28,339 bases of DNA from a virus. This document shows, piece after piece, positions 14,322 through 28,339 of the stretch. The notes under the pieces are model-generated. The model was not told the DNA's origin, did not search any database, and saw nothing but the letters and a program-made list of their open reading frames with translations. Both the position numbers and the translations under genes were made by a program. How positions within the stretch are numbered: position 1 is the first letter of the stretch; each line of letters begins with the position of its first letter. The DNA is taken from positions 1 to 28,339 of the IMG/VR virus record IMGVR_UViG_3300047550_003787; one strand, given 5' to 3'.

Positions 14322-14537
14322 ATGTCTCTGATCGAAAAATTCAAGAAAGATGTTAGCACTTTGCGTTCTGCTGCTAATGGGGATATCTACCTTGATGTAA
14401 AGAGTCCGAAACTTTATAAGAAAGTTCGCCGCTATTATGAAAATAATGGTGTCGTGTTTTCTGGAGATCCCCTTGACGATTATGAAATGCTGATGGATTA
14501 TCTCTATCAGGATCTTGAAACGATTGAGGTTGCCTAA
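14322..14537 (+). CDS. 71-residue acidic protein of unknown function
   Basis: ATG 14322, first gene after the 14270 promoter, no SD. The sequence mixes a basic N-terminal half (FKKDVSTLRS, KLYKKVRRYYENNG) with an acidic C-terminal half (DDYEMLMDYLYQDLETIE). Coupled to the next gene by a TAATG overlap. Confidence 0.7.
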   Translation: MSLIEKFKKDVSTLRSAANGDIYLDVKSPKLYKKVRRYYENNGVVFSGDPLDDYEMLMDYLYQDLETIEVA

Positions 14538-14800
14538 TGAAAGTCGTCAAAAAACCTACCATTCTTCTTGAACGGTTTCCCTATCGTTATGTCCAGGTCG
14601 GTACATTAGAAATCAACGGGAAACCTGATTATCGTATTCAGAAAGTAGATTCCTACACTGGGCGATATAGGGATATGTATCTTTTAGATAATGAGATGCA
14701 ATTGATGACGGCAATGGAAGATTTTTCTTACACTTGTTGGTTAGATTCAGATATGGTTCCTGCATATGTGAAAGATGACGAAGACACGGATAGTCTTTAA
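14537..14800 (+). CDS. 87-residue protein of unknown function
   Basis: Starts at the overlapping ATG 14537. Beta-rich look (KPTILLERFPYRYVQVGTLEI, then DYRIQKVDSYTGRYRDMYLLD) and an acidic tail (DDEDTDSL). No cysteine pattern or membrane segment. Likely an early host-takeover gene by position, but that is only inference. Confidence 0.7.
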   Translation: MKVVKKPTILLERFPYRYVQVGTLEINGKPDYRIQKVDSYTGRYRDMYLLDNEMQLMTAMEDFSYTCWLDSDMVPAYVKDDEDTDSL

Positions 14801-14827
14801 AAGAACTGGTCGGAAGCAAACCCCCCT

Positions 14828-15061
14828 ATGTCAAAGTCTAATATATTCAGATATATTGGTAATATTCTTCTCTTATCAGGATACTTTTTCCTATTATGGG
14901 GAGATATGAAAATCGGACTATTTGTAAAATGTATTGGAAACGTATTTGTCGTTCCCTTTGCTATCAAATATAAGTTTTGGGACATTCTTTTCTTATGTGG
15001 TTTTTATGCTGCCATTGAAATTCCAAAACTAGTCCAACTTTTCCTAGTTAAGTCAAACTAG
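14828..15061 (+). CDS. 77-residue polytopic membrane protein
   Basis: ATG 14828, no SD. About three hydrophobic helices (YIGNILLLSGYFFLLWG, FVKCIGNVFVVPFAIK, FWDILFLCGFYAAIEIP). Balanced loops with Lys. No transporter signature recognised. It is the last gene before the promoter of the glycan island. Confidence 0.65.
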   Translation: MSKSNIFRYIGNILLLSGYFFLLWGDMKIGLFVKCIGNVFVVPFAIKYKFWDILFLCGFYAAIEIPKLVQLFLVKSN

Positions 15062-15191
15062 GTGGTGGAGCCAATCCCCAATATGCCCGTGATGGAGACA
15101 CGTTAACAATCCTGGTGCGGATGGGATAACTCCCGCCCAGTTTCTTGCTTCTGGTCAAAGAGCAAGTGGCGAGCCTGCATAAACTGAGTAG
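15062..15191 (+). other. region with a possible decayed coding remnant
   Basis: No complete gene. Two frames look protein-like in succession: first a Gly/Asn-rich stretch (GGGANPQYARDGDTLTI, from 15061), then in another frame PGADGITPAQFLASGQRASG up to TAA at about 15183. Together they resemble the end of a tail-fibre-like protein broken by a frameshift. A stem CTTGCT/AGCAAG lies near 15147-15170. A structured RNA is the alternative. Confidence 0.3.
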
Positions 15192-15192
15192 A

Positions 15193-15227
15193 GGGGAGTT
15201 GCATAAACTCTCCTTTTTTGGTATAAT
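15193..15227 (+). promoter_or_regulatory. terminator hairpin fused to promoter TTGCAT-17-TATAAT
   Basis: GGGGAGTT (15193-15200) pairs with AACTCTCC (15206-15213), followed by six T (15214-15219): an intrinsic terminator for the upstream genes. The -35-like TTGCAT (15199-15204) lies in its loop and TATAAT (15222-15227) is 17 bp on. It therefore both ends one unit and starts the glycan operon. Confidence 0.7.
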
Positions 15228-15250
15228 TGTATGATAACAATCTATTGTTT

Positions 15251-16075
15251 ATGAAATTACATTTAACTTACTTTGGAGATAATAACTTTTCTTTAGGTAA
15301 GAATAGAATCAGAAAGCAAGCAGAAAACTTTGGAGTCTTTGAAACGATTCAAGAGTTTGGAGAATCTGACTTGGAGGATAATCTATTTTGGGAGCAATAT
15401 GCAAAACCAATGATGAATCCTCGCATAGGAATGCCTAGAAGGTATTATGGATATTATGTCTGTAAACCTTACTTTATTCTCAAAGCACTAGAAAATATTC
15501 CTGAAGATGATGTACTTCTTTATGTTGATTCTGGATGTGAGTTGAATAAAAACGGTCTAGAAAAACTGAAACAATATTATGAAGAGTGTCTTGAAACTGA
15601 GGGAGTCTTCTTTACTTTAGATCTTCCAGAAATTCAGTGGACAAAGATGGATACCTATCACCATATTGTTGGGGACAATGATGAATACCTTATGACCCGA
15701 CAAGTTATTTCTGGTATCTTTTTCCTGAAGAATACACCTATGATGCGTGAGTTAGTTCAGAAATGGACTGATGTTTGTATTGAAGGTGGTGGAAAGTATC
15801 TTGATGATAGTGCTTCAATTCTTCCAAATGATGAAATTTTCAGGGAGAATAGACACGACCAATCTATTTGGTCTTTGCTTTTAAAGAAAAAGGCAGAAAC
15901 TCATGACTTTACATTTCATGAGGATGATACTTATGAAACGATTTGGAATGCTGCTGGAATGTCGGGGGTTCCTGTAGGGCAGCAACAAGCACAAATTTGG
16001 AATACCTACGGTAGAGAGTATCCAATCTGGGCAACTAGAAATGGTCAAGTAGATTTTACAAATTGTCAAGTATGA
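15251..16075 (+). CDS. putative glycosyltransferase, first gene of the glycan island
   Basis: 274 residues from ATG 15251 ([12 protein letters not shown]). The segment [19 protein letters not shown] followed by [14 protein letters not shown] fits GT-A sugar-transferase-like proteins in which a strand ends in the metal-binding motif; here it reads VDSG rather than DxD. Later, SGIFFLKN and [12 protein letters not shown] resemble the acceptor-side half of GT32/MNN-like enzymes. Would transfer a sugar from a nucleotide donor. Shares ATGA with the next gene. The TTG at 15227 is rejected because it lies in the -10 box. Confidence 0.65.
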
Positions 16076-17073
16076 AAAAAGCATTAATAACCGGAGCGAC
16101 AGGTCAAGATGGTTCTTATCTAGCAGAATTACTACTTGAAAAAGGTTATCAAGTTCATGGCATTATCAGACGATCATCCCTTATTAATACTAATCGTATT
16201 GATCATATCTATGATTCTATTACTCTCCATTACGGTGACCTTACTGATTCTACCAATCTTGTAAGAATTATTCAAAAAGTAAAGCCTGATGAAATTTATA
16301 ATCTTGGTGCTCAAAGTCATGTCAAAGTATCCTTTGAGATGCCTGAATACACTGCTGATGTGGATGCTGTGGGAACTCTTCGTATTCTTGAAGCAGTGCG
16401 TCTTTTGGGGATGGAAGATAATGTCCGCATTTATCAAGCATCTACAAGCGAACTTTATGGTCTTGTACAAGAAATTCCTCAAAGGGAAACTACTCCTTTT
16501 TATCCCCGTTCTCCTTATGGGGTAGCAAAACTATATGGTTACTGGATTGCAAAAAACTATCGTGAATCTTATGGAATGTATGCTTGCACAGGTATTCTTT
16601 TCAATCATGAATCTCCTCGTCGTGGAGAGACATTTGTTACTCGTAAAATTACCCGTGCTCTCTCAAAAATCTCTACAGGACAACAACAGATTCTTGAGTT
16701 GGGAAATCTGAATGCAAAGCGTGACTGGGGACATGCTAAAGACTTTGTGGAAGCAATGTGGATGATGCTTCAGCAGGATGAACCTGATGATTTTGTGATT
16801 GCGACTGGAGAGCAATATTCTGTGCGTGAGTTTGTAGAAGAGGCAGCACCTTATTTTGGTATGAATATTGTCTGGCAGGGTGAAGGTCTAGATGAAATTG
16901 GTATTGACAAAAATACAGGAAAAATGGTTGTGCGAGTTAACCCTAAATATTTCCGACCTGCTGAAGTAGAGACTTTATTAGGTGATGCCACGAAGGCAAA
17001 AGAAAAACTTGGTTGGACGCCAAAGACTTCTTTCAAACAATTAGTTGAGGATATGTGCATTTATGGACAGTGA
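16072..17073 (+). CDS. gmd: GDP-mannose 4,6-dehydratase
   Basis: 333 residues, SDR extended family. NADP-binding GATGQDG at 8-14; active-site Thr125 and Glu127 in STSELYG; Tyr149 and Lys153 in SPYGVAK; substrate loop [17 protein letters not shown]. These are all diagnostic of Gmd, which converts GDP-D-mannose to GDP-4-keto-6-deoxy-D-mannose. Length is slightly below bacterial Gmd (about 370) but all motifs are present. Start ATG 16072; overlaps both neighbours. GDP-mannose must come from the host, as no mannose-1-phosphate guanylyltransferase of clear type is seen here. Confidence 0.95.
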
Positions 17074-17977
17074 TTCTAGGGTATTAGTTGCTGGTGCCAA
17101 TGGAATGGTTGGTTCAGCAATTGTGAGAAATCTTGAGAGTAAAGGTTATACCAACATCATTAAAGGCACTCGTAATGATGTAGATTTTACAAATCAAGAT
17201 GAGACAGAAAGATACTTTTTTTCAGAAGAACCTGAGTATGTTTTTGTCGCTGCTGCTAAGGTTGGCGGTATTATGGCAAACAACAACCATAAGGCAGAGT
17301 TTCTGACTGAGAATCTGCAAATTCAGACTAATCTTATTCAACAGTCTTATAACTTTGGTGTAAAGAAATTACTCTTCCTTGGGTCTTCCTGCATTTATCC
17401 TAAGTTTGCCACTCAACCAATTACTGAAGATCAGTTAATGACTGGTCCTCTTGAGCCAACTAACGATGCCTATGCTATTGCTAAGATTGCTGGCATTATG
17501 ATGTGTCAGGCATATCGTCAGCAGTATGGTTTCAATGCCATTTCTTTGATGCCTACGAATCTTTATGGTCCTAATGATAATTTTGACCTGGAGACTTCAC
17601 ATGTTCTTCCTGCAATGATTGCTAAATTTCATAACGCTAAAGAATCCGTAACTCTTTGGGGTAATGGTTCAGCAATGCGTGAGTTTTTGCATGTTGATGA
17701 TCTTGCTGAAGCATGTTATGTCTGTATGCAGAAGTATGATGAAGCAGGACATATTAATGTTGGTACAGGTGAGGATGTTGGAATTTGGGAACTTGCAAAT
17801 ATTATTGCTGATGTTGTTGGTTATGATCGTGACATAAACTGGGATTTCACTAAACCAAATGGAACTCCTCGCAAGGTTATGAATGTAGATCGAATCAAAG
17901 CACTTGGATGGAAACCAAAGATTGGTCTCCGTGAAGGTATTGAAGATACATATCAGTGGTATAAACAATGTCTGTAA
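17063..17977 (+). CDS. fcl: GDP-L-fucose synthase
   Basis: 304 residues. GANGMVG NADP-binding loop at 11-17, GSSCIYP with Ser109 and Cys110 (catalytic Cys of the epimerase step), Tyr137 and Lys141 in NDAYAIAK, and SHVLPAMI with the His that acts as general acid. Fcl (WcaG) performs the 3,5-epimerisation and 4-reduction of the Gmd product to GDP-L-fucose. Start ATG 17063 lies inside the end of gmd (11-bp overlap). Together the two genes give a complete route from GDP-mannose to GDP-fucose. Confidence 0.95.
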
Positions 17978-18543
17978 AAGACTTTTATAAATCTCACATT
18001 GAGTCTATTCAAACTTCTTACGATTATCTTGAAGATGAAAAGGTTGAGAAGTTGATAGACCTTATGTTAAATTGTAAAGGAAAAATACTCTTTACGGGAA
18101 TTGGTAAGAATGGACATGTTGCTGCTAAAGCAACTTCTACAATTTCTTCAATTGGACTTCCTTGTTTTTTCATTGATGCTGTTGATAGTGTGCATGGAGA
18201 CATGGGAGTTGTTGATGAAAACGATATATTGATTGCTGTATCCAAAAGTGGAAATACTGATGAATTGATTAATTTTTTACATCATGTAAATCATAAGAAT
18301 TGTAAGATTGTGTCTATTCACTCTAATGATGGAAATCAATCTCAAAAGTATTGTTATCTTGATATTAATTTACATGTTGATAGAGAAGCGGACCACTTAA
18401 ATATTGTTCCAACTTCATCTATAGCAATTTTTACAATTTTTCTTCAATCAGTTGCTTGCGAAATATCAAGAAGAAAAAATCTGACACTTAAACAGTTTGT
18501 CCAAAATCATCCAGGTGGTAGTATCGGAAAGACAACAGTATGA
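17968..18543 (+). CDS. KdsD/KpsF-like sugar-phosphate isomerase (SIS domain only)
   Basis: 191 residues. SIS-domain motifs of arabinose-5-phosphate isomerases: GIGKNGHVAAK, then DSVHGDMGVV (with the conserved His-Gly-Asp), SKSGNTDEL (phosphate binding) and the terminal NHPGGSIGK. The usual two CBS domains of KdsD are missing, as in short family members. Known family reaction: ribulose 5-phosphate to arabinose 5-phosphate, also seen for GutQ and KpsF. Starts 10 bp before the fcl stop and runs 4 bp into the next gene. No KdsA/KdsB homologue for Kdo follows, so the product may enter a different activated sugar. Confidence 0.85.
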   Translation: MSVKDFYKSHIESIQTSYDYLEDEKVEKLIDLMLNCKGKILFTGIGKNGHVAAKATSTISSIGLPCFFIDAVDSVHGDMGVVDENDILIAVSKSGNTDELINFLHHVNHKNCKIVSIHSNDGNQSQKYCYLDINLHVDREADHLNIVPTSSIAIFTIFLQSVACEISRRKNLTLKQFVQNHPGGSIGKTTV

Positions 18544-20066
18544 TTACTCATAATGATATTAAATATGTAATTATTCAGGCTGGTGGTAAGGGCACTCGTC
18601 TTGGAAAATATACTATGAATAGACCAAAATGTTTGGTTCCTGTTTATGGTAAACCGATGATTGAGCAAACCTTAGAAGTATATAAGGATAAAACTGTTAT
18701 CATTATTGGGGACACTCACTTTCAAATGTTGTCCAATTATATTGGTGAGATTAGTCATAGTGATAATTATATTTTACTTCAAACTGATGAGGATGGCACC
18801 GCAGCTGGAATCACATCTGCTCTTGAAAATATTCCTGATGGAGAACCTTTCATCATAACTTGGTCTGATTTGTTTTTTGAGAAAGAGCAAGAATTTCAAT
18901 TTGATAATGAATTGCTTGTAGGTCTTGCTGGTAATTTTGATTGTAGATGGTCTTTAGAGAATGGTGTATTTAAAAACACTCCTTCTCAAGAAAGAGGTGT
19001 CTCTGGATTTTTTGTCTTTAAAAATAAAAATAGGTTTGAAAATATTAAAACTGATAAGTCTTTAGTGAGAGGATTTTTGAGTGATAATTATATGCCCTAT
19101 GAAATATCGTCATTTACAAATCATCACTGTTTTGAAGTAGGGACAATTGATAAGTATGAGGAGATTTTGAGTAAACAAGTTAATCATCGTTTCTTTAATG
19201 AAGTTATAATTGAAGATGGTAAGGTTTATAAAAAGTGTGTAGACTTGAAGTATGAAAAAGTTCATGAAGCAGAAAAAGAGTGGTATGAATATGTAAAAGA
19301 TTCCTTCTTTAGGATACCAAAAATTTATTCGTCAAATCCATTGGTTATGTCTAAAGTTGATGGAAAACATGCTTGGGATGTTAAAACCAATAAAGATTGG
19401 GTAATAGAAAATTATTGCAATGCCCTTCAGGAATTACACTCCATCAAAGGAAGTTGCGAACCAATTAGTGACTATGATTGTGCGGACACTTATATGTTTA
19501 AACCCTATCAGCGGGTAATGCAAGTCAGACATATCATTGAAGATTTTTCTAAACCTGTTATTCAAATTAATGGAAAATCCTGCAGAAATCCATTCTGCGA
19601 TATTAAAAGTTTTGAGAAGATTGTAGAAAATAATCTTCTTAAGAATATCAATTATACTGTTATTCATGGTGATTGTACTTTTAGTAACACTATAATTGAT
19701 GATAAGAATCAAGTTTGGTTTATTGATCCTAGAGGAATATTTGGTGGGTCTAAAATATATGGAGACCCGCGATATGATTGGGCAAAACTTTATTACTCTG
19801 CAGTTGGAAATTATGATAAGATTAATTCTAAAAAATTTAGTGTAGATAGAAGTAGTGATGTTAAACTTGATATTGAGACTAACGGATATGGGCATCTAGG
19901 TGAATATATTATTCAGAGATCTAAAATGTCTAAACTTCAGATGCTATTAATACATACTAGCATTTGGTTTTCTTTATCTGGATATGTAAAGGAAGATATA
20001 GATGCAGTTTTATATTCATTTTATAAAGGATGTGAATTATGGACAGAAGTAATTACTCTGATTTGA
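18540..20066 (+). CDS. bifunctional nucleotidyltransferase-APH/choline-kinase-like fusion
   Basis: 508 residues. The N-terminal half (1-230) is a sugar-1-phosphate nucleotidyltransferase: AGGKGTRL (14-21), NRPKCLVPVYGKP (27-39), DEDGTAAGI and an Asp in TWSDLFF for the metal. The C-terminal half (about 240-508) looks like an aminoglycoside/choline-type kinase: HGDCTFSN (His376-Gly-Asp378, catalytic loop) and IDPRG (Asp396, metal binding). One chain would phosphorylate a sugar and then couple it to a nucleotide, comparable in logic to bacterial FKP, though with a different kinase fold. It overlaps the isomerase by 4 bp and the phosphatase by 28 bp. Substrate is unknown. Confidence 0.8.
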   Translation: MITHNDIKYVIIQAGGKGTRLGKYTMNRPKCLVPVYGKPMIEQTLEVYKDKTVIIIGDTHFQMLSNYIGEISHSDNYILLQTDEDGTAAGITSALENIPDGEPFIITWSDLFFEKEQEFQFDNELLVGLAGNFDCRWSLENGVFKNTPSQERGVSGFFVFKNKNRFENIKTDKSLVRGFLSDNYMPYEISSFTNHHCFEVGTIDKYEEILSKQVNHRFFNEVIIEDGKVYKKCVDLKYEKVHEAEKEWYEYVKDSFFRIPKIYSSNPLVMSKVDGKHAWDVKTNKDWVIENYCNALQELHSIKGSCEPISDYDCADTYMFKPYQRVMQVRHIIEDFSKPVIQINGKSCRNPFCDIKSFEKIVENNLLKNINYTVIHGDCTFSNTIIDDKNQVWFIDPRGIFGGSKIYGDPRYDWAKLYYSAVGNYDKINSKKFSVDRSSDVKLDIETNGYGHLGEYIIQRSKMSKLQMLLIHTSIWFSLSGYVKEDIDAVLYSFYKGCELWTEVITLI

Positions 20067-20380
20067 GTAAAACTTGGATATTTGATTTAGACGGAACATT
20101 AGTCAAACATAATGGATATAAGAATGAAGGAGAGCAACTACTTCCTGGTGTAAAAGAGTTTTTCTCTAAGATATCAAAGGATGATAAAGTTGTTATTTTG
20201 ACTGCCAGAGATAAGGAGTATCAGGAAATTACCGAAAAGTTTCTTACAGAAAATAATATCAGATTTGACCATATCATCTATGGATTGCCCATAGGTGAGA
20301 GAATATTATTCAATGATAAAAAACCAAGTGGTCTTAAAACTGCTTATGCCTATAACTTGGAAAGAGATGGTGGATTATGA
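20039..20380 (+). CDS. small HAD-family phosphatase
   Basis: 113 residues. FDLDGTL (Asp16 nucleophile, Asp18), VILTARD (motif II Thr), and a C-terminal FNDKKPSG with the acidic residue and Lys of motifs III/IV. No cap domain, similar to HisB- or GmhB-like enzymes in sugar pathways. It probably removes a phosphate from a sugar bisphosphate or monophosphate within the neighbouring activation route. Start ATG 20039 is inside the kinase gene end. Confidence 0.8.
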   Translation: MDRSNYSDLSKTWIFDLDGTLVKHNGYKNEGEQLLPGVKEFFSKISKDDKVVILTARDKEYQEITEKFLTENNIRFDHIIYGLPIGERILFNDKKPSGLKTAYAYNLERDGGL

Positions 20381-21147
20381 ATGCCTTTATAACTCTTAAC
20401 GATCCAAGATTTAATTATCAATATAAAGGATTTTGCTCCATTGTATGTGCTATAATTGATATAGCAATGGAGCATTATTGTGTGTATGGAAATTTGAATT
20501 GTAGCGTCTACGAATCACAGACTCTTAAATTATTTGATAACACTTATGAAGTTAGTGATATAGAATATGATGCTGGATCTTGGTGGTTAGATAGATTTTT
20601 TAATAATCAATTACATCATTCAAAATATTCTGCACACACTATTGCAAATATTGATAATCTAAAGTTAAAGAATAAAATATTTGATAGTATTCTTAGTCTT
20701 AAAGAGGATAAGTTAAAAACTTTTCAACAAAAATTTACAGACCTAGGAATTACAAATAAAACTCTTGGAGTGCAAATCAGAGGCACTGATAAGAAGACAG
20801 AAATACCAGAACCAAATATTGAAAATATCATCAGTAAGATTGATTATTACTTTAATAATAGTGATGTAGAAAATATTTTTTTAGCGACTGACGATATAAA
20901 ATATCTAAATCCAATCAAAGAAAGATATAAAGATAAACTTTTATACGATAATCAAATTACAATAAGTAATAATGATACTCCACTCCATACTTTTCCCGAT
21001 AGAGACTTAATAAATGAAGAAGTATTATCGAGCGTTTTTATTCTTTCAAGGTGCAGTCACTTTTTGTATAGTTTTTCAAATGTTAGTCTCCTTGCGTTAA
21101 TTATGGGAGCAAATGATTTTCAAACAATACTCAATTTAAATCAATGA
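20377..21147 (+). CDS. GT23/NodZ-like putative fucosyltransferase
   Basis: 256 residues. Three blocks typical of NodZ/FUT8 and related GT-B fucosyltransferases: LGVQIRGTDKK (residues about 130-140, nucleotide-sugar Arg and Asp), NIFLATDDIKY, and LSRCSHFLYSFSNVSLLAL (C-terminal donor motif). With GDP-fucose made by gmd and fcl next door, alpha-fucosyl transfer is the best guess. The start shares ATGA with the HAD gene. The sequence is more AT-rich than the porin and shows no signal peptide. Confidence 0.65.
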   Translation: MNAFITLNDPRFNYQYKGFCSIVCAIIDIAMEHYCVYGNLNCSVYESQTLKLFDNTYEVSDIEYDAGSWWLDRFFNNQLHHSKYSAHTIANIDNLKLKNKIFDSILSLKEDKLKTFQQKFTDLGITNKTLGVQIRGTDKKTEIPEPNIENIISKIDYYFNNSDVENIFLATDDIKYLNPIKERYKDKLLYDNQITISNNDTPLHTFPDRDLINEEVLSSVFILSRCSHFLYSFSNVSLLALIMGANDFQTILNLNQ

Positions 21148-21821
21148 AATATATTTACCATCATTTAGGATTAGGAGACCACATCATTAACAATGGTATG
21201 GTTAGGCACTTTTATAAGCAATATGAATCTATTTGTTTATTTGCATACAAGCATAATGTAAAAAATGTGCAGTATATGTATAGAGATTTGGATAATCTTC
21301 AGGTTATAGGTGTTGAGAGTGATGCACAAACTGATTTCTATATTTCTAAAAATAATTTAGATTGCATTAAGATTGGATTCGATAAGTTATCCGGTGTGAT
21401 GCCTGATCTTCCCTTTGATAAAGCATTCTATAAACTCGCTGGATTAGATTTTTCTGTTCGCTTTGATGAATTTTATTTTGAGCGAGACTTAGAAAAAGAA
21501 CAAGAGGTCTTGAATACTCTGAATCCAACTGGGGAGAAGTTTATTTTTGTACACGATGATGCATCCCGTGGATTTTCAATTGATATGAATAGAGTCAAGA
21601 CTGAGTATAAGGTGATTATGAATCATAAGAGATTTAATGTTTTTGATTACATTACTTTGATTGAAAATGCTGAAGAAATACATTTTATGCAGTCATCATT
21701 CAAGGAATTGATGTGCTCTTACAAATTAGAAAAACCTATTCTATATCAGCATAATTATATTAGGCAGTATGATGAATGTATGAATTCTTCTGGTCTTAAT
21801 CCATTTATTGAGATAAACTAA
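21144..21821 (+). CDS. putative glycan-biosynthesis protein, GT-B-like
   Basis: 225 residues. Begins MKYIYHHLGLGDHIINNGMV; a Gly-Leu-Gly-Asp start is common in GT9-like and other GT-B enzymes. A later segment FIFVHDDASRGFSID and AEEIHFMQSSFKELMCSY resembles the donor-binding half of such enzymes (strand, then Ser-x-x-x-Glu-Leu). No full family signature is visible, so activity is inferred from the operon position (4-bp overlaps both sides). Confidence 0.5.
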   Translation: MKYIYHHLGLGDHIINNGMVRHFYKQYESICLFAYKHNVKNVQYMYRDLDNLQVIGVESDAQTDFYISKNNLDCIKIGFDKLSGVMPDLPFDKAFYKLAGLDFSVRFDEFYFERDLEKEQEVLNTLNPTGEKFIFVHDDASRGFSIDMNRVKTEYKVIMNHKRFNVFDYITLIENAEEIHFMQSSFKELMCSYKLEKPILYQHNYIRQYDECMNSSGLNPFIEIN

Positions 21822-22528
21822 TGATTAGTATTGTAACTGGCACACTAAATCGTGTGGGAATGCTTCCTAACTTGATTAAAAATACTGTTCTTGCTGACGA
21901 TAGAATAGAACTTGTATTGGTTGATGGTGGGAGTAATGACGGCACTGTAGATTACATTAAGCAAATCAATCATCCTCAAATCAAACTGATAGAGATTGGT
22001 GGTAGAAGTTCTTATCCACATTTCATGAATATTGGTATTCGTGAATCAACTCATGAAATAGTGTGTCAGTGGAATGACGATGTTATTTTATGTAATGATT
22101 GGTCTGAAGTTATTATTGAAACGCAATCAAATCATGACTTCTATCTTTTTAATTGGAAGTATGGATCTTTTGATGAAACTAAAAATCCAGATTGGTTGAA
22201 TGGCATTGACCATACATCTGGATGGTGTCTGTGTAACATTGCCGATAGTGGTGGTGAAATTGTAATGAATTATGGACTATATCATAAAAAAATATTCAGA
22301 GAAATAGGAATGTATAATCCTGAATATCAATATTATTGTGCAGATGGTGATATGTCCTATCGTGCATATTCTTTCGGATATCAAGTTAAAGACCTAAGAC
22401 ATATTAAGGTGTGCTCACTTCCTGCAAGTAAAGTTGCAACTTCTCATCCAGGAGATCATTCAATATATCATAAAAATATGGATTTATATCGGCAGAAAAT
22501 TCTTCCAGATTGTCTTCAGTATCTTTGA
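21821..22528 (+). CDS. family 2-type glycosyltransferase
   Basis: 235 residues. MISIVTGTLNR at the start and VLVDGGSNDGTVDYI (residues about 33-47) are the GT2 nucleotide-binding motif; WNDDV (about 88-92) is the DxD-equivalent. A later DGDMSYRAYSFGY block matches the ED/Y region where the catalytic base sits. GT-A fold, inverting. The stop overlaps convergently (13 bp) with the minus-strand gene that follows. Sugar not predictable. Confidence 0.8.
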   Translation: MISIVTGTLNRVGMLPNLIKNTVLADDRIELVLVDGGSNDGTVDYIKQINHPQIKLIEIGGRSSYPHFMNIGIRESTHEIVCQWNDDVILCNDWSEVIIETQSNHDFYLFNWKYGSFDETKNPDWLNGIDHTSGWCLCNIADSGGEIVMNYGLYHKKIFREIGMYNPEYQYYCADGDMSYRAYSFGYQVKDLRHIKVCSLPASKVATSHPGDHSIYHKNMDLYRQKILPDCLQYL

Positions 22529-23196
22529 ATAATCATATCGCGGTGGTTAGATAATTGCTTATCATTTTCATCAAAAGGTTCTCCAATAAAAGCAAAGTCA
22601 TCTAACTTGCGATCTCTTTTAATTGGATTTCCAATTTGCTCATAATTAAAATATTCGTCATGAAGAAATAAACTTGTAACTGCTTGGGGATAAATTACCT
22701 CCTGTAGAAATCTCTGGTCTACTGCTCGGTCTGGTATCCAATGTGATGTGCTGATATATTGTTGCATTTTTTCATCAATGTTTTGAATGAATCCAGATTT
22801 GCAACCCCACATTCCAGCACTAATTTCCCAAGCGTGCCCTCCAGGATGGTCTCTAATGATATGAAACTGTTTATCTGATTCTAACCATTCATTTACAGCA
22901 GCAACATCGCGCTCAAACAAACGAGAATCACAGTCTCTGGAGATAAAACATTCAATCCCTTCTTCAGATGCTGGACTAAATCTCCACATTGCATTAGAAT
23001 GATTTTGATTATCTCTTTCTACGAGTTTTACATTATTGCTTTCTAATTCTTCTAATATATAAGAAGGTACTGAGTCATCATGATAAACTCTCATTTCCCA
23101 TTCTGGGTAAAACTTATTCTTAAGAAGAGAGTTTTTAATTGCTCCCACAGTGTATTTTGGGTTATCACCCCATAAAGAAAAAGATACAACTTTCAT
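22516..23196 (-). CDS. putative glycosyltransferase on the opposite strand
   Basis: 226 residues from ATG 23196 (the upstream GTG 23202 is less likely). Starts MKVVSFSLWGDN; a GT-A-like layout with ECFISRDCDSRLF, where Arg-Asp-x-Asp-Ser-Arg acts as the metal-binding motif, then HIIRDHPGGHAWEISAGMWG and, near the end, DQRFLQEVIYP. It is the only gene in the island on the minus strand, which suggests separate acquisition or inversion. The next gene starts divergently 24 bp away, so each promoter must lie inside the other gene. Confidence 0.7.
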   Translation of the reverse strand: MKVVSFSLWGDNPKYTVGAIKNSLLKNKFYPEWEMRVYHDDSVPSYILEELESNNVKLVERDNQNHSNAMWRFSPASEEGIECFISRDCDSRLFERDVAAVNEWLESDKQFHIIRDHPGGHAWEISAGMWGCKSGFIQNIDEKMQQYISTSHWIPDRAVDQRFLQEVIYPQAVTSLFLHDEYFNYEQIGNPIKRDRKLDDFAFIGEPFDENDKQLSNHRDMIIQRY

Positions 23197-23220
23197 ATTC
23201 ACATCAATTCTTTATTATAT

Positions 23221-24042
23221 ATGACTGAGAAAAAACAGTATAACTTAGTTGGTGGTGGTTTTAATAACTATGATAATGGAAATAAAGCATCTTCCATTTA
23301 TAAGCAGGAATCAAAGTTTATAGAGTGGGTAGATTCTGGAGCAGAAGAAACTTTCTATGTAGATCGATACATTGGTCTTGCCTTTGATGATGATTATAGT
23401 AAAAAGAAGTATGCTTGGTTACTAGAGTCTGCAAATATTTGTCCAGATGTATTAGAAGATGTGAAGAGAAATTATCTTCACTATATTAGAGTTTATGATG
23501 CAATTTTTACTCATCATCAAGACTTAGTTAAATTGCATCCTAAGTTTAAGTTTGCTCCTTTATATGGCAGTTGGATTGCCGACCCAAAACTTTACGATAA
23601 GAGTAAATTAGTCTCTATGATTTGCTCTAACAAGGTAATGTGTGAAGGGCATCAATACCGTTTATCCTGGGCAAAGAAACTACAAGGGAAAGTTGATTTT
23701 TATGGAAGAGGATTTAATGAGATTCAATCCAAGGAAGAGGGTCTAGCAGATTATATGTTTTCAGTTGCTATTGAAAACGCTTCTTATGAATCTTACTTCA
23801 CTGAAAAGATTCAAGATTGTTTTTCTACAGGAACCATACCAATTTATTATGGGTCTCCTGATATTGGAAAGTTTTTTAATCCCAAAGGAATTATTACGCT
23901 TACTGATGATTTTGATGTCTTTCAATTGACTCCAGACCTTTATTATGATAAACTGGATGCAGTAAAAGAAAATTTAGAGAGAGTCAAAGATTTTCTAATC
24001 AACGAAGATTACATTTACAAAACTTACTTACAAGAATTATGA
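23221..24042 (+). CDS. GT10-like alpha-1,3/4-fucosyltransferase
   Basis: 273 residues. The C-terminal half carries the GT10 signature: YMFSVAIENASYESYFTEKI (residues about 179-198), then CFSTGTIPIYYGSPDIGKFF. This is the donor-binding alpha-1,3-fucosyl motif (ENxxxxxYxTEK, GxxPxxxG). The N-terminal half is poorly conserved, as usual for acceptor binding. Known members transfer L-fucose from GDP-fucose to GlcNAc or Glc. The start sits 24 bp from the divergent gene; the stop overlaps the methyltransferase (ATGA). Confidence 0.85.
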   Translation: MTEKKQYNLVGGGFNNYDNGNKASSIYKQESKFIEWVDSGAEETFYVDRYIGLAFDDDYSKKKYAWLLESANICPDVLEDVKRNYLHYIRVYDAIFTHHQDLVKLHPKFKFAPLYGSWIADPKLYDKSKLVSMICSNKVMCEGHQYRLSWAKKLQGKVDFYGRGFNEIQSKEEGLADYMFSVAIENASYESYFTEKIQDCFSTGTIPIYYGSPDIGKFFNPKGIITLTDDFDVFQLTPDLYYDKLDAVKENLERVKDFLINEDYIYKTYLQEL

Positions 24043-24656
24043 TTTTAAGTTTTACTAATATTGTAAAAAAATACAATATGAATATTAAAGGAATTATTCA
24101 TATTGGTGCTCATCAAGGTTGGGAGGTTGATGAATATATTAATAATGGAATTCAAGATATTGTTATGTTTGAACCTGTAAGTGAGAATTTTACAATTCTT
24201 GAGGAAAAACTTCGGGATGCAAATGCTAATATTTCTGCTTATCAAGTTGCTCTTGGTAATGAAGAAAAAAATGTTACAATGTATTTGAGTGATAATGGTC
24301 TTCTCAGCAGTTCCGTTTTAAAACCAAAAGTTCATCTTGAACTTCATCCAACTGTAGGATTCCCTACAACAGAAGAAGTTGAAATGAAAAGACTGGATAG
24401 TTTTGCTGAAGAGACTCAAAACTTTAACTTTATCAATATGGATGTGCAGGGATATGAACTTGAAGTTCTTAAGGGTGGTGCAGAAACTCTGAAGCACATT
24501 GATTATGTTTATTGTGAAATCAATCGTGATGAACTATACGAAGGAAATGCTTTTGTAGAAGACCTTGATAAGTTTCTTGCCGATTATAATATGGAAAGAG
24601 TGGAAACCGATTGGGCAGGAACTCTTTGGGGAGACGCTCTCTATGTGAGGAAGTGA
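24039..24656 (+). CDS. FkbM-family methyltransferase
   Basis: 205 residues. SAM-binding IIHIGAHQGWEVDEY (residues about 19-33), MFEPVSENF, and the hallmark NMDVQGYELEVLKGG (about 132-146). FkbM enzymes O-methylate hydroxyls, often on sugars. O-methyl fucose or rhamnose is known in surface glycans, so it likely methylates a sugar of this glycan. Overlaps its upstream neighbour by 4 bp; 1 bp before the GT11 gene. Confidence 0.9.
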   Translation: MILSFTNIVKKYNMNIKGIIHIGAHQGWEVDEYINNGIQDIVMFEPVSENFTILEEKLRDANANISAYQVALGNEEKNVTMYLSDNGLLSSSVLKPKVHLELHPTVGFPTTEEVEMKRLDSFAEETQNFNFINMDVQGYELEVLKGGAETLKHIDYVYCEINRDELYEGNAFVEDLDKFLADYNMERVETDWAGTLWGDALYVRK

Positions 24657-24657
24657 A

Positions 24658-25506
24658 ATGACTATAAGTTATAATCGTCTTGGGTCAAATGGGCGTCTTG
24701 GAAATCAAATGTTTCAATATGCTGCTCTTCGTGGTATTGCAGCAAATCGTGGATTTGATTGGTTGATTCCTCCTCCAGACAGTTATGGTGATTCAAACTA
24801 TGGATTGTTTGATTGCTTCAAGATGTCTTCGGTCAAGGAAGAAAACTTTGGATATTTAAATGCTCAAAGTATTTCTTCCAATCAGTTTCACTTTTCAAAA
24901 GAATTCTTTGATGGATGTCCCGACAATGTAAATCTTCATGATTACTTTACTACAGAGAAGTATTTTGAGAATGTAAAGGATATTATTCGTAAAGACTTTA
25001 CTTTCAAGGATGAAATCTTAGAACCTTGTAAGGAGATTATAGACCAACTGGATAATCCTATCTTTATGCATTTGCGTAGAGGTGATTATGTAGTCAATCC
25101 AAGTGCTCATCCAATTTGCCCCATTGAATACTATGAGGAGGCACTAACAGATTTTGATGAAGACAAACCTGTTATTGTCTTCTCTGATGATATTGGGTGG
25201 TGTAGAGATCAACCTTTTTTTGAAAGTGATAGATTTATGCTCTCTGAATTTGATGAGAAGTATGCACAAACTTGCGATACCCTCCAAGGAAGACAACAAG
25301 CATTGATTCCTTATTTTGACTTGTGTATGATGACTCTCTGCACAGGAGGAATTATTGCTAACAGTACTATGAGTTGGTGGGGTGCTTGGTTGATGCAAAA
25401 TAGGACACAACCAATCATTTATCCTACACAATGGTTTGGTAGTTACTACGACCATTACATTATGGATGATTTGTGCCCACAAGATTGGTTTGGAGTTGGA
25501 GTATGA
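24658..25506 (+). CDS. GT11 alpha-1,2-fucosyltransferase, copy 1
   Basis: 282 residues. All GT11 motifs are present: GRLGNQMFQYA (12-22), HLRRGDY (His138 onward; GDP-fucose binding, HxRRxDY), VFSDDIGWC and NSTMSWWGAWL. Such enzymes add fucose by an alpha-1,2 link, typically to galactose. Compared with copy 2 at 26317 it has an insertion before the last motif (around TCDTLQGRQQALIP). ATGA overlap with the next gene. Confidence 0.92.
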   Translation: MTISYNRLGSNGRLGNQMFQYAALRGIAANRGFDWLIPPPDSYGDSNYGLFDCFKMSSVKEENFGYLNAQSISSNQFHFSKEFFDGCPDNVNLHDYFTTEKYFENVKDIIRKDFTFKDEILEPCKEIIDQLDNPIFMHLRRGDYVVNPSAHPICPIEYYEEALTDFDEDKPVIVFSDDIGWCRDQPFFESDRFMLSEFDEKYAQTCDTLQGRQQALIPYFDLCMMTLCTGGIIANSTMSWWGAWLMQNRTQPIIYPTQWFGSYYDHYIMDDLCPQDWFGVGV

Positions 25507-26330
25507 ATAATCTTACATTCTTAATGCCTTGTCGGATTGAGAGTGAGGACCGACTTAAAAATGTGATTACATCTATTAGTTACATCACTCATCATTTTCC
25601 ACAGTCACCAATTATCATCAAGGAAAATGATACCCAGTCAGTCTTTCAGGCAAAAGCACTTCCAGTCATTGAAAAGATCTTTGGGGATATTCCAACAAAT
25701 CTGTATCATATCTTTGAGCAGTCTGATAATAAATTCTTTTACAAGACTCGCATTCTAAATGATTTACTTCTAGCATCAAAAACAGAAGTTGTTTATAATT
25801 ATGATGTGGATGTTGTTTATCCAGTATCCAGTTATGTAACTGCATATAATATGATTATGCATGGTGGATTTGATGCAGTCTATCCTTATGGTTGTGGTGT
25901 TTATCAATGGGCAGTTGATTACCCCATTCCACTATTTGATGCTTTTATTCAATCAAAGTTTGATTTGAATGTTCTGCAATCAAAATGTAGACTGCAACCA
26001 TCAGTAATGGGATGGGGGCAAATGATTAAGCGTCAAGTTTATATTGACTCTTATATGTGGAATGAAAATTTTATTTCTTGGGGAGCAGAAGATTGTGAGT
26101 ATTATTATCGTCTTCAAGCACTAGGTTATTGTGTTGGTAGAGTCAATGATATGGTTTACCACTTTGACCATGCTCGCACTTTCAATTCACACTACCACAA
26201 TCCAAAGTTTATGGACAATCATAATCTTTGGCAAACTATTCGCACTTGGGATAAAGATGCTATAATAAGGTATTATGAATCTCAGAGTTATGTTAAGGAG
26301 AGAAGGAGTCAGTTGAATGCTAGCGTTTAA
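25503..26330 (+). CDS. GT-A glycosyltransferase with GT7-like C-terminus
   Basis: 275 residues from ATG 25503. VVYNYDVDVVYP (about 101-112) supplies the DxD motif. The C-terminal part NFISWGAEDCEYYYRL followed by a VYHFDHAR segment matches the galactosyltransferase GT7 C-terminal module (W-G-x-E-D and a late His). Probably transfers Gal/GalNAc-type or similar sugar; donor unknown. It lies between the two GT11 paralogues and overlaps both. Confidence 0.78.
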   Translation: MNNLTFLMPCRIESEDRLKNVITSISYITHHFPQSPIIIKENDTQSVFQAKALPVIEKIFGDIPTNLYHIFEQSDNKFFYKTRILNDLLLASKTEVVYNYDVDVVYPVSSYVTAYNMIMHGGFDAVYPYGCGVYQWAVDYPIPLFDAFIQSKFDLNVLQSKCRLQPSVMGWGQMIKRQVYIDSYMWNENFISWGAEDCEYYYRLQALGYCVGRVNDMVYHFDHARTFNSHYHNPKFMDNHNLWQTIRTWDKDAIIRYYESQSYVKERRSQLNASV

Positions 26331-27123
26331 TCATCTTGGAAAACTGGGTAGACTTGGAAATCAAATGTTTCAATATGCTTCATTGAGGGGCATTGCCCGA
26401 AATCGTGGATATGATTTTTGTATTCCCAATCATCAGGAAGTATTGAAAGATCCTTATGGGTTTGATGTAAAGATAGAATTATTCTATCCATTTAAAATGA
26501 CATATGTGCTTCCTCATAATATTAAACTTCTTGATAGGGGATATGCACCCATAGCACAAGAGAAGCAGTTTCATTTCGATGAGACGCTTTTTAATATGTG
26601 TCCAGATGAAATTACTCTTGCTGGATTCTTTCAATCTGAAAAATACTTCAAACACATTGAAGATGAAATTCGTGAAGACTTTTCTTTTAAGAATGAGATT
26701 CTATATCCATGTAAAGAAATGATGGAGTCTGTCGGAGAAGCAATCAGTCTTCATATTCGTCGCACTGATTATCTTCAGAATCCAAATCATACTGCTCTTG
26801 GATTAGAATATTATACTGAAGCACTTCAAAAGTTTGATTCAAATCTTCCTGTGATTATCTTTACTGATGATGTGGAGTGGTGTAAAGAGCAGGAAGTATT
26901 CTCTGACGAACGCTTTATGATTTCTGAATCTGGAGACCACTATGTAGATATGTGCTTGATGACTCTGTGTAAATATCATATCATTGCAAATTCTTCATTC
27001 TCTTGGTGGGGCGCTTGGTTATCCAATTCTGATAATGTGATTGCACCACATAAATGGTTTGGTGAAGGAAATCAAGATAAAAATACAGAAGATTTAATTC
27101 CAGAAAGGTGGAGTAAACTATAA
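26317..27123 (+). CDS. GT11 alpha-1,2-fucosyltransferase, copy 2
   Basis: 268 residues. GRLGNQMFQYA, HIRRTDY (HxRRxDY), FTDDVEWC and NSSFSWWGAWL are all conserved. It is clearly related to copy 1 (for example GNQMFQYA, the segment SEKYFKHIEDEIREDFSFKN and the CK stretch after it), but diverged. This points to an old duplication followed by specialisation. The start ATG 26317 has a GGAG SD about 12 bp upstream; its TAA overlaps the next ATG. Confidence 0.92.
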   Translation: MLAFNHLGKLGRLGNQMFQYASLRGIARNRGYDFCIPNHQEVLKDPYGFDVKIELFYPFKMTYVLPHNIKLLDRGYAPIAQEKQFHFDETLFNMCPDEITLAGFFQSEKYFKHIEDEIREDFSFKNEILYPCKEMMESVGEAISLHIRRTDYLQNPNHTALGLEYYTEALQKFDSNLPVIIFTDDVEWCKEQEVFSDERFMISESGDHYVDMCLMTLCKYHIIANSSFSWWGAWLSNSDNVIAPHKWFGEGNQDKNTEDLIPERWSKL

Positions 27124-27917
27124 TGGACAAAAACAAATCTGCTTATAAACTTAAAAACATTGGGCCCATATATTATCTGAATCTGGATGGACAACCAGAA
27201 AGAAAAGAATATATGGAAGAGCAGTTTAAGTATTGGGAAATAGAAAACTATACTCGTATTTCTGCTTATGATGGTCGTGATGATGATTTAAGTGACATTA
27301 TCAAAGGTCGTTATCCAGAAACAATGACTTCTGGTGAGATTGGATGCACTACATCACACCTCAAGGCAATTAAGCATTGGTATGAAACTTCTGATAGTCC
27401 TTATGTGATTATTATGGAGGATGATATTGATTTGCAGACAGTAAGATTCTGGGATTTTACTTGGGCAGATTTTGTATCCAAGATTCCTTATGATTGGGAT
27501 GTTGTGCAACTTGCCATCATCTGCACTGGTGATTTGCATGTTAAGTTGCATAAGAGATTTGTGAATGATTTTTCTACTGCTTGTTATATGATTACTCGTC
27601 ATCATGCAGAAAAACTTATTAAGTTTCATGTGAAAGGTGAAAAGTATAAATTGGACCAAGGTGTAAAACCAAGAGCAGTTGCTGATGACTTGATTTATAA
27701 TTCTGGTAATACTTATTCAATTCCTCTTTTTCTTTATCGTATTGCTTTAGGATCTTCTATTCATCCAGAGCATATTGATGTGTTTCACCGAGCAAGTCAC
27801 GACGGACTTCTTCAGTTCTGGGAACGTCAGGGTCATGATATGAATATTGACGACTTGATGAATTATGATCCGTTTTTAGGTCGGATAACCCACCCTTCTC
27901 AGCAGCAAAGTCAGTAA
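27123..27917 (+). CDS. GT25 family glycosyltransferase
   Basis: 264 residues. YYLNLDGQPERKEYM (residues about 17-31), SGEIGCTTSHLKAIKHW (about 69-85), YVIIMEDDID (EDD metal/donor motif, about 95-104) and a later DLIYN segment. GT25 enzymes include LPS beta-galactosyltransferases such as LgtB and LpsA. Last gene of the island; its tail is Gln-rich. A new promoter (27934) for hli starts 17 bp after the stop, with no clear terminator between. Confidence 0.9.
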   Translation: MDKNKSAYKLKNIGPIYYLNLDGQPERKEYMEEQFKYWEIENYTRISAYDGRDDDLSDIIKGRYPETMTSGEIGCTTSHLKAIKHWYETSDSPYVIIMEDDIDLQTVRFWDFTWADFVSKIPYDWDVVQLAIICTGDLHVKLHKRFVNDFSTACYMITRHHAEKLIKFHVKGEKYKLDQGVKPRAVADDLIYNSGNTYSIPLFLYRIALGSSIHPEHIDVFHRASHDGLLQFWERQGHDMNIDDLMNYDPFLGRITHPSQQQSQ

Positions 27918-27933
27918 TCTCTGACAAAAACCC

Positions 27934-27982
27934 TTGACACCTCTTAACATTTGCTATATAATTCTGTTGTAAATCTTTACAA
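27934..27982 (+). promoter_or_regulatory. consensus sigma70 promoter TTGACA-17-TATAAT with operator-like repeat
   Basis: -35 TTGACA (27934-27939), -10 TATAAT (27957-27962), spacer exactly 17 bp: a full consensus match. A perfect inverted repeat TTGTAAA-TC-TTTACAA (27967-27982) covers the start site, ending 6 bp before the hli ATG. Confidence 0.92.
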
Positions 27983-27988
27983 AAGATA

Positions 27989-28183
27989 ATGACTGTAACG
28001 ACTAACGAATATGGGCAACAGAATATGTTTGCCAAAGAACCCGTAATGTATTATCAGAACTATGGTATGCTCACACCTAATCAAGTAAAGGAGCGTACAA
28101 ATGGTCGTTGGGCAATGATGGGAATCGTAGCAGGCTTGATTTCTTACGCAACTACTGGTAAACTATTCTTCGGTGTGTTCTGA
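27989..28183 (+). CDS. hli: high-light-inducible protein
   Basis: 64 residues. The C-terminal chlorophyll-binding helix carries the hallmark ERTNGRWAMMGIVAGL (ExxNGRxAMxG). The N-terminus (about 34 residues) is variable, as in other phage Hli proteins. Hli proteins sit in the thylakoid membrane, bind chlorophyll and carotenoids and protect photosystems, here keeping the host photosynthetic during infection. Strong early-type promoter; no strong SD. Stop overlaps the next ATG (TGATG). Confidence 0.95.
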   Translation: MTVTTNEYGQQNMFAKEPVMYYQNYGMLTPNQVKERTNGRWAMMGIVAGLISYATTGKLFFGVF

Positions 28184-28269
28184 TGACTGAAGTTTTCTGG
28201 ACCGCCATCAGCATTACGTTTTTTGTAATGCTTGCATATTCTGTAGAAAAATTATCTGAAACTTACTGA
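28183..28269 (+). CDS. 28-residue membrane peptide
   Basis: From ATG 28183 (TGATG overlap with hli) to TGA 28269, again TGATG with the ferredoxin start. One helix (FWTAISITFFVMLAYSV) with an acidic tail. The gene exists most probably because both junctions are coupled in the same way. It may be a small photosynthetic-membrane accessory. Confidence 0.6.
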   Translation: MTEVFWTAISITFFVMLAYSVEKLSETY

Positions 28270-28339
28270 TGACTACTTATCAAATTACTATTCAATCTCC
28301 TGACGGTTCTGGTAAAACTTTCCAATGTCCTGAAGACCA
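28269..28339 (+). CDS. petF: plant-type [2Fe-2S] ferredoxin, 5' end only
   Basis: The first 23 residues (MTTYQITIQSPDGSGKTF, then QCPED) match the start of plant-type ferredoxins, whose conserved FxCPED strand precedes the cluster-binding loop. The window ends before the four cluster Cys, so the assignment is by N-terminus and the hli context, which is common in cyanophages. It would carry electrons from photosystem I to phage or host reductases. Confidence 0.7.
   Translation, partial: MTTYQITIQSPDGSGKTFQCPED

Follow-up and report, generated by a model that had tools for sequence, protein, structure and literature searches.

Gene content of the island

The window, a stretch of 28,339 nucleotides from a virus that infects cyanobacteria of aquatic habitats, carries at 15,251-27,917 an almost gapless series of 16 open reading frames that mostly overlap or abut each other (Table 1). 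It comprises gmd and fcl, genes for one GT10, two GT11 and one GT23/NodZ-like transferase, an FkbM methyltransferase gene and genes for five or six other glycosyltransferases. Profile and PDB matches confirm these assignments, which had already been made in a preliminary description of the sequence. The mostly overlapping order noted there applies to the 15 of 16 frames on the plus strand, while a single frame is antisense. In Synechococcus phage S-SRM01 the whole set is collinear with 82% nucleotide identity and every frame is open, and dN/dS between the two islands amounts to 0.06-0.21, pointing at purifying selection. The gene set is thus not due to chance and, as S-SRM01 is an isolated phage, the island is real, maintained and already deposited. 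Collinearity with S-SRM01 also led us to reject a recent assembly chimera as the origin of the gene mix in the window itself. The start of the island was placed at 15,251 and not at the less likely in-frame TTG at 15,227, because the S-SRM01 gene begins at the equivalent of 15,251.

Table 1. Features of the glycan island, with positions in the window and the evidence for each assignment
Feature	Start	End	Strand	Evidence
GT-A-fold glycosyltransferase (A-GT), 274 aa, left scaffold	15251	16075	+	AlphaFold2 fold matches
gmd, GDP-mannose 4,6-dehydratase	16063	17073	+	TIGR01472, 572 bits (cut-off 415)
Exchangeable donor-sugar cassette	16070	21814		Boundaries by comparison with L007
fcl, GDP-L-fucose synthase, type I allele	17045	17977	+	Best PDB matches GDP-L-fucose synthases, E 1e-98
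SIS-domain sugar-phosphate isomerase, KdsD/KpsF-like	17968	18543	+	SIS, 6e-19
Fused nucleotidyltransferase/APH-type kinase	18540	20066	+	NTP_transferase, 9e-14; APH, 3e-5
Small HAD phosphatase, 113 aa	20039	20380	+	HAD/NIF/PNKP profiles
GT23 (NodZ/FUT8)-like transferase, type I allele	20377	21147	+	PF19745, 5e-9, 35.8 bits (cut-off 27.6)
Minimal GT-B (GT9-like) transferase, 225 aa, type I allele	21144	21821	+	AlphaFold2 and Foldseek
GT2 glycosyltransferase, first right-hand scaffold gene	21821	22528	+	PF00535, 9e-12
Antisense frame, putative GT-A transferase	22516	23202	-	SRDCDSR motif
GT10 alpha-1,3-fucosyltransferase-like	23221	24042	+	PF00852, 1.7e-11, 44.6 bits (cut-off 23.9)
FkbM methyltransferase	24039	24656	+	PF05050, 3e-21; missing from several relatives
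GT11 alpha-1,2-fucosyltransferase-like, copy a	24658	25506	+	PF01531, 7e-21, 75 bits (cut-off 23.9)
GT7-C/GT27-like transferase	25473	26330	+	PF02709, 3e-4, just under cut-off
GT11, copy b	26317	27123	+	PF01531, 3e-30, 106 bits (cut-off 23.9)
GT25 transferase, right-hand scaffold gene	27123	27917	+	PF01755, 1e-14

The route from GDP-mannose to GDP-L-fucose had been termed complete and both of its enzymes are indeed encoded, with Fcl reaching 456 bits against NF047922, just below the cut-off of 500. Neither phosphomannose isomerase nor ManC is present in the island (an isomerase domain occurs in relatives), and GDP-mannose itself must therefore be supplied by the host. GT10 is similar to the fucosyltransferase FucT of H. 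pylori (6e-12) and shares its E-N...Y-x-TEK motif, which is invariant in 25 sequences. The two GT11 proteins are paralogues with 44% identity, and the GT11 motifs RR-x-D and NS-x-x-SWW are invariant in 33 sequences. In the NodZ-like protein, Q-x-RGTDK including its arginine, ATDD and YSFSNVS are invariant in 21 sequences, while a single-sequence comparison with FUT8 yielded a weak match (E 0.06). At least three fucosyltransferase-like enzymes are thus encoded. GDP-L-fucose synthesis, fucosyltransferase-type enzymes with signature motifs invariant across relatives and a methyltransferase bear out the earlier proposal of a phage locus for glycan assembly. The fucosyltransferase folds had been considered unrelated, which is overstated because GT11 and GT23 are members of one superfamily.

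The first gene, A-GT, belongs to a phage-only family found in 61 IMG/VR loci, with no match in 84,980 prokaryote genomes. Its best PDB folds, XXYLT1, mimivirus R699 and PBCV-1 A64R, are only suggestive because the AlphaFold2 model is of low confidence (pLDDT 66). The 225-aa transferase was modeled with a pLDDT of 92 and resembles GT9 (3tov, Foldseek E 3.7e-5, TM 0.61); its family gave one marginal match in 292 cyanobacterial genomes and none in one Cyanobium genome searched. The antisense gene, which has no Pfam match and whose product may be a glycosyltransferase, stays antisense in S-SRM01 (77% amino acid identity) and in most IMG/VR relatives. The GT7-C/GT27-like protein matches PHROG 15655 (2e-113), a PHROG of unknown function. 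A phage-encoded outer-membrane porin is located near the island in the window and directly follows the GT25 gene in several relatives.

Occurrence in other cyanophages

A search for the island in other cyanophages, as had been suggested, revealed it in its entirety in S-SRM01 (NC_070963, 191,592-205,028; PMC8557907), where all 16 genes occur in the same order with 76-93% amino acid identity and differ in arrangement by a homing endonuclease between the first glycosyltransferase gene and gmd. From the island region, the table in the S-SRM01 paper lists only NodZ, two GT2-like proteins and a phosphatase, and the passages found in that paper contain no discussion of the sugar pathway (PMC8557907). 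Published work already describes glycan islands of cyanophages that combine gmd and fcl with several fucosyltransferases: phage S-SCSM1 has been published with gmd, fcl, POFUT, alpha-1,2-fucosyltransferase and NodZ (PMC9602691). Its cell-wall gene set and the 'LPS genes' of P-SSM2 and S-SSM7 resemble the island of the window in bringing together gmd, fcl, alpha-1,2-fucosyltransferase, NodZ and further glycosyltransferases in a T4-like cyanophage, and the same function has been proposed for them. The gene set differs by the presence of GDP-mannose 3,5-epimerase, POFUT and MPI, and neither an arabinose module nor cassette exchange is described in the section consulted. GT10 and GT11 are moreover paired in S-SM2, S-T4, S-SSM7 and others, and to call the combination of fucosyltransferases in the window unusual is consequently an overstatement.

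A putative arabinose module

The central part of the island, at 17,968-20,380, consists of a three-gene module for a putative arabinose-5-phosphate isomerase, a fused nucleotidyltransferase/kinase and a HAD phosphatase. The isomerase matches PHROG 5670 ('arabinose 5-phosphate isomerase', 2.6e-41) and PDB 5uqi (2e-29), lacks CBS domains and scores under the curated KdsD/KpsF equivalog cut-offs. The fusion protein, a putative NDP-sugar-activating enzyme, has full-length homologues in RB69-like phages (E 1e-35) and homologues with 35-39% identity in picocyanobacteria. Homologues of the HAD protein (57-60% identity) adjoin the nucleotidyltransferase/kinase gene in six of six host loci inspected, and in two of the picocyanobacterial loci that were profiled this pair resides beside ribulose-phosphate 3-epimerase or KdsD, i.e. 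pentose-phosphate enzymes. Neither the trio nor the replaceable cassette at 16.07-21.81 kb had been mentioned in the preliminary description.

RB69-like phages contain homologues of the SIS isomerase (29% identity) and of the nucleotidyltransferase/kinase in a trio of the same order. Their third gene is small and HAD-like by motif only: the window HAD protein gave no BLAST match to it, and the likeness is thus one of HAD motifs and gene position. The RB69-type module has been predicted to make NDP-arabinose for DNA, and RB69 DNA has been shown to contain arabinose (PMC6024577). A homologue of the fusion protein has been linked to pentose activation in the Thanatos study, albeit without proof (PMC12838424). 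Whereas the predicted donor of the RB69 type is transferred to hydroxymethylcytosine in DNA, the trio of the window sits in a glycan island. Its match to the RB69-type module suggests that it probably makes NDP-arabinose and that the island is probably dedicated to fucose and arabinose. The island had been called fucose-centred, which is overstated: of its five genes for donor sugars, three make up the probable NDP-arabinose module. The donor of the NodZ-like transferase, in turn, may differ from GDP-fucose, since its gene moves with the type-specific sugar genes and not with the scaffold.

Exchange of the donor-sugar cassette

The window and a metagenome contig, L007, are 99.6% identical at the nucleotide level over 12,705-16,089 and 97.6% identical over 21,814-28,339, while the sequence in between is replaced, with L007 carrying ColD (GDP-colitose dehydratase) in place of the window's version. 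The gmd gene lies within the exchanged block yet is common to all types; it is 77% identical in L007 as compared to 99.6% for the flank. An older pair is made up by S-SRM01, which like the window is of type I, and L011/L052 of the ColD-containing type II, with the right flank at about 94% and the cassette at 72% or absent. The evidence for exchange stems from metagenome contigs; both types are also found in contigs exceeding 200 kb (L095, L006), type I is present in an isolate, and the two types co-occur in metagenomes 3300042987 and 3300043442.

Trees of 42 typed loci separate types I and II a single time (support 100) for fcl, for the NodZ-like gene and for the 225-aa gene, with all three changing together, whereas A-GT, GT2, gmd and GT10 require four to five type changes. 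In nucleotide trees, A-GT requires eight changes over four types.

Type II ColD has a DegT fold and its best PDB matches are ColD structures (2gms, E 3e-55). Its HH-x-x-T-x-EGG motif (GHHMSTVEGG aligned to SHHIATMEGG) features the ColD histidine that replaces the aminotransferase lysine. Colitose is therefore the probable extra sugar of type II, and type II Fcl, judged by its sequence, may synthesize either GDP-fucose or GDP-colitose. No report of colitose in cyanophages was found in a body of literature from which most subscription papers are missing, which is weak evidence of absence. Type II relatives resemble colitose O-antigen loci of the E. coli O55/O111 type in combining gmd, ColD and an Fcl/ColC-like protein and in having a middle block of sugar genes that is swapped while the flanks are conserved, but are phage-borne and lack Wzx, Wzy, initiating transferase and ligase. 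The gmd-fcl-ColD-GT11 order also occurs in marine cyanophage ACG-2014f (NC_026927), whose 'aminotransferase' is 54% identical to type II ColD; this phage differs in being devoid of the arabinose module, and the stretch examined showed neither the first glycosyltransferase nor the NodZ-like gene.

Proposed function and alternative explanations

Gene content, purifying selection, exchange of the cassette and linkage are established by the data above, while the products of all enzymes, the acceptor and the benefit are inferred in what follows. With about even confidence, we consider the island a phage-encoded, serotype-like, donor-switchable surface-glycan locus of T4-like cyanophages that likely acts on host lipid A-core. 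The scaffold (A-GT, gmd, GT2, GT10, GT11, GT7/27-like, GT25 and an optional methyltransferase) would provide a fucosylated side chain, and the swappable cassette would determine the extra sugar and the two transferases for its attachment. In type I, Gmd and Fcl would convert host GDP-mannose to GDP-L-fucose; in parallel, the SIS protein would form arabinose-5-phosphate from ribulose-5-phosphate, and the HAD protein and the kinase/nucleotidyltransferase would yield NDP-D-arabinose. In type II, ColD would channel the product of Gmd towards a 3,6-dideoxy sugar, GDP-L-colitose being the most likely. The type-specific donor would serve as substrate for the NodZ-like and GT9-like enzymes.

None of the 16 island frames encodes a membrane-spanning enzyme, the sole hydrophobic stretch being a helix of the SIS fold. 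Initiating transferase, flippase and polymerase of a Wzx/Wzy O-antigen cluster are not among them, and the island lacks the GtrA flippase and GtrB bactoprenol transferase of the seroconverting gtrABC systems of temperate phages. Virion or host LPS had been named as targets, and the lack of membrane glycan enzymes argues against an autonomous O-antigen polymer, which we reject. With all enzymes soluble, assembly of the chain would take place in the cytoplasm and extend an acceptor that is already there. Host lipid A-core shortly before its export is the most likely one, and the surface of the infected cell would then be remodelled, for example against superinfection. A virion protein is the less likely acceptor; host LPS core is favored, the virion being nearly as good an alternative.

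Glycosylation of virion proteins such as tail fibres or capsid decoration, with the types reflecting particle recognition, for example by lectins on the host surface or by grazers, and not LPS, is accordingly a serious possibility, albeit one we rate below an even chance. It is in line with soluble transferases and with the lack of a lipid-carrier initiating enzyme, flippase, polymerase and ligase in the island, with the PBCV-1 capsid glycosyltransferase and a lysyl-hydroxylase glycosyltransferase domain among the fold neighbors of the weak A-GT model, and with mycobacteriophage reports that take glycosyltransferases as evidence of virion glycosylation. The island itself, however, encodes no virion protein, and the porin near it or behind GT25 points to the host envelope. 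A reading without serotype-like meaning, in which GDP-L-fucose is the donor of GT10, GT11 and NodZ alike in either type and the cassette alters side metabolism only, appears rather unlikely. GT10 and GT11 are up to 97-100% identical between types, so some donor must be common, and Fcl homologues occur in both; yet NodZ and the 225-aa transferase are only 51-60% identical between most type I and type II alleles and never mix, as is expected if they are matched to donor or acceptor.

Use of the arabinose and fucose donors for modification of phage DNA, as in the arabinosyl-hydroxymethylcytosine of RB69, is very improbable despite the homologous trio in the same order (PMC6024577). S-SRM01, the closest isolate, was searched since the genome of the window is a fragment; it has no thymidylate synthase-fold gene (PF00303) and therefore lacks this kind of dCMP hydroxymethylase, whereas an RB69-like control phage has two such genes. 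The trio is furthermore embedded among carbohydrate glycosyltransferases and ColD takes its place in relatives. Least probable of all is an ordinary host LPS cluster, acquired as a passenger without phage role or misassigned to a virus. The glycosyltransferase families are typical of bacterial LPS and capsule clusters, and the fusion and HAD proteins have the host homologues described above, but an isolated phage genome contains the whole island, A-GT occurs in 61 viral contigs and has no match among 84,980 genomes, members of the 225-aa family are all but missing in 292 cyanobacterial genomes and dN/dS stays well under 1. Contamination by host DNA and an LPS island from bacteria are rejected, given that an isolate carries the locus and that its first glycosyltransferase is phage-only.

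Returning to the serotype-like locus, we find it somewhat more probable than its opposite that lytic cyanophages hold a standing 'serotype' pool, in which a phage-only locus exchanges donor-sugar cassettes (fucose/arabinose, colitose, perosamine-like or other) with matched transferases. In this view, the conserved flanks would allow the exchange through homologous recombination, and selection would favor diverse surfaces of infected cells or of virions. For two decades, the glycan genes of cyanophages have gone by the name of 'LPS genes' and, to our knowledge, their products have never been tested. Related viruses exchange a block for a special sugar (fucose plus probable arabinose versus probable colitose) much as bacteria swap serotypes, suggesting serotype-like diversification in lytic viruses, and the putative arabinose module that they have in common connects islands for surface glycans with the arabinosylation of DNA in RB69-like phages. 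A cassette with two inseparable transferases and near-identical flanks provides natural pairs, window and L007 as well as S-SRM01 and L052, by which direct sugar analysis can answer whether the phage repaints the cell or itself.

Content and conservation of the glycan island

Sixteen ORFs lie within positions 15,251-27,917 of the 28,339-base virus record, 15 of them on the plus strand and most overlapping or abutting. Profile searches bore out the glycan gene set of the preliminary description, with gmd, fcl, a GT10, two GT11, a GT23-like (NodZ-like) transferase, a GT2, a GT25 and an FkbM methyltransferase all found. The nearest isolate, Synechococcus phage S-SRM01, shares the gene order and 82% nucleotide identity across 97% of the window. 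As all island genes are intact in both, with protein identities of 76-93% and dN/dS values of 0.06-0.21, the island is real and under purifying selection. The first glycosyltransferase gene, at the left end, occurs on at least 61 IMG/VR contigs and in none of 84,980 prokaryote genomes.

Cassette types and their exchange

The preliminary description missed that the centre of the island is exchangeable. Among the contigs typed, type I cassettes (15 loci) contain genes for an isomerase, an NTP/kinase and a HAD protein, as in the window and S-SRM01. Type II cassettes (27 loci) contain fcl', a DegT-fold enzyme, a 114-aa protein and in many cases a PMI domain; variants of the 225-aa and NodZ-like proteins are usually present, in reversed order. 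Three loci have a different DegT-type enzyme and two a further set. ColD structures are the best PDB matches of the type II DegT-fold enzyme (3e-55), which has the ColD histidine in place of the aminotransferase lysine and by these sequence features is ColD. The product of ColD is the 3-deoxy intermediate of GDP-colitose, and fcl' may encode the matching synthase.

One pair records a recent exchange. The window and locus L007 (type II) share 99.6% identity over 12,705-16,089 and 97.6% over 21,814-28,339, and between these flanks they align only at gmd (77%) and at diverged fcl, NodZ and 225-aa genes. An older pair is formed by S-SRM01 (type I) and the type II loci L011/L052, with a right flank at about 94% and a cassette at 72% or absent. 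Both types occur together in metagenomes 3300042987 (L005; L008) and 3300043442 (L023; L009). Protein trees give a clear answer: in those of fcl (with 42 loci), NodZ (with 28) and the 225-aa gene (with 35), type changes a single time, with support 100, whereas the first glycosyltransferase, GT2 and gmd require five changes each and GT10 four; the nucleotide tree of the first glycosyltransferase needs eight over four types. The donor genes and two transferases thus move together as a block, over a scaffold that is itself exchangeable. SIS/NTP-kinase or ColD served to define the types, so the fact that fcl, NodZ and the 225-aa gene agree with them signifies linkage; what the test adds independently is the behaviour of the flanks, which do not track type.

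In S-SRM01, a homing endonuclease gene that might promote cassette exchange separates the first glycosyltransferase from gmd and so marks the left edge of the cassette precisely; in type II relatives, a PMI domain takes this position. Further cassettes are included in the table.

A putative arabinose module

Not mentioned in the preliminary description are three genes between fcl and the NodZ-like gene, encoding a SIS-domain isomerase (PHROG 'arabinose 5-phosphate isomerase', 2.6e-41; PDB 5uqi, 2e-29), a fusion protein of nucleotidyltransferase and APH-type kinase, and a small HAD phosphatase. With tblastn, full-length homologues of the fusion protein (about 25% identity) were recovered from T4-like phages that infect enterobacteria and related bacteria, in hundreds of cases. 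In the RB69-like Shigella phage SHSML-52-1 (Mosigvirus), an arabinose-5-phosphate isomerase gene is followed by a 47-aa ORF, the fusion protein gene and a gene for a small protein with HAD motifs. Arabinose is present in RB69 DNA, and an isomerase/fusion/HAD-type module is its proposed source (PMC6024577; PMC8056088). Picocyanobacterial genomes encode a fusion protein homologue at 35-39% identity, directly followed in every locus inspected by the same phosphatase (57-60%); one profiled locus has ribulose-phosphate 3-epimerase and a PMI-like protein as neighbours, while the neighbour in another is a complete KdsD comprising SIS plus CBS domains. With pentose phosphate as the common denominator of these contexts, we infer that the module would lead from ribulose-5-P via arabinose-5-P to NDP-D-arabinose. 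D-arabinopyranose is L-fucose minus C6, and it is thus plausible that fucosyltransferase-type enzymes use the arabinose donor.

TRANSFERASES Transferase motifs and folds

GT10 carries the EN...Y.TEK motif, as in H. pylori FucT (invariant in 25 sequences), GT11a/b carry RR.D and NS..SWW (33 sequences), and the NodZ-like protein RGTDK, ATDD and YSFSNVS (21 sequences). Sequence comparison gave no family for the 225-aa protein, but its model (pLDDT 92) matches GT9 (3tov, E 3.7e-5), a minimal GT-B; the first glycosyltransferase is tentatively modelled as GT-A. Since types I and II share GT10 and GT11 at up to 97-100% identity, these enzymes should either use a donor found in each of the two types or accept the donors of both. 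Candidate transferases for the type-specific sugar are the NodZ-like and 225-aa enzymes.

Target of the glycan

None of the island proteins spans a membrane (the SIS protein has a hydrophobic stretch, which belongs to a helix of its fold), and the island encodes no initiating transferase, flippase, polymerase or ligase. This excludes an autonomous O-antigen for the island, and the enzymes must therefore extend an acceptor already in the cytoplasm; both lipid A-core and virion proteins could serve as one. Two points make us lean weakly towards the host envelope: an OprB/SLH porin accompanies the island, directly following GT25 in several relatives, and diversity of the cell surface as a defence against competing phages would be a simple reason for balanced types. 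The porin has the highest dN/dS measured between the window and S-SRM01 (0.32), and with no more than 41% identity to its nearest match found in bacteria (Cyanobium), it seems to form a separate phage lineage. DNA modification is unlikely: a thymidylate synthase-fold gene (possible dCMP hydroxymethylase) was not found in S-SRM01, and two were found in an RB69-like control.

Relation to known phages

The whole island is already deposited for S-SRM01. S-SCSM1 is described with gmd, fcl and several fucosyltransferases, and a host surface change is likewise proposed for it (PMC9602691). Islands of this kind are thus published, whereas in the open-access literature we found no description of cassette exchange, of colitose genes in cyanophages or of an arabinose module in a glycan island. 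In marine cyanophage ACG-2014f (NC_026927), a protein following gmd and fcl and not recognised as ColD is 54% identical to type II ColD, making a colitose route probable.

Features of the window and of related loci
Sequence	Position	Strand	Feature
Window	3161-5025		Adjacent C39-like peptidase and phage lysozyme ORFs matching two halves of PHROG 3617; appears to be an endolysin split in two, as in S-SRM01
Window	9336-10859		Complete OprB-type porin, signal peptide and SLH domain; S-SRM01 copy 74% aa
Window	11571-12134		Ferritin/Dps-like protein upstream of island; also in S-SRM01
Window	12399-13022	-	Protein with MYM/FCS-type zinc finger, beside tRNA-Ser
S-SRM01 (L004)	22467-23168		Homing endonuclease
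ACG-2014f (L037)	11980-13173		Protein annotated 'aminotransferase'
L019	4405-5887		Further cassette type; DegT-type aminotransferase with catalytic lysine kept, GNAT acetyltransferase; sugar possibly perosamine-like, N-acetylated
L065, L066, L092			Further cassette types; DegT-type aminotransferase as in L019, GNAT acetyltransferase also in L092; sugar possibly as for L019
L045, L046, L080			Another cassette, 517-aa protein and four ORFs; by length like S-SM2 counterparts (dN-sugar pyrophosphorylase, class II aldolase, HAD)
L018	7881-8567		Fringe-like glycosyltransferase (PF02434, 2e-16), insertion in one type II variant
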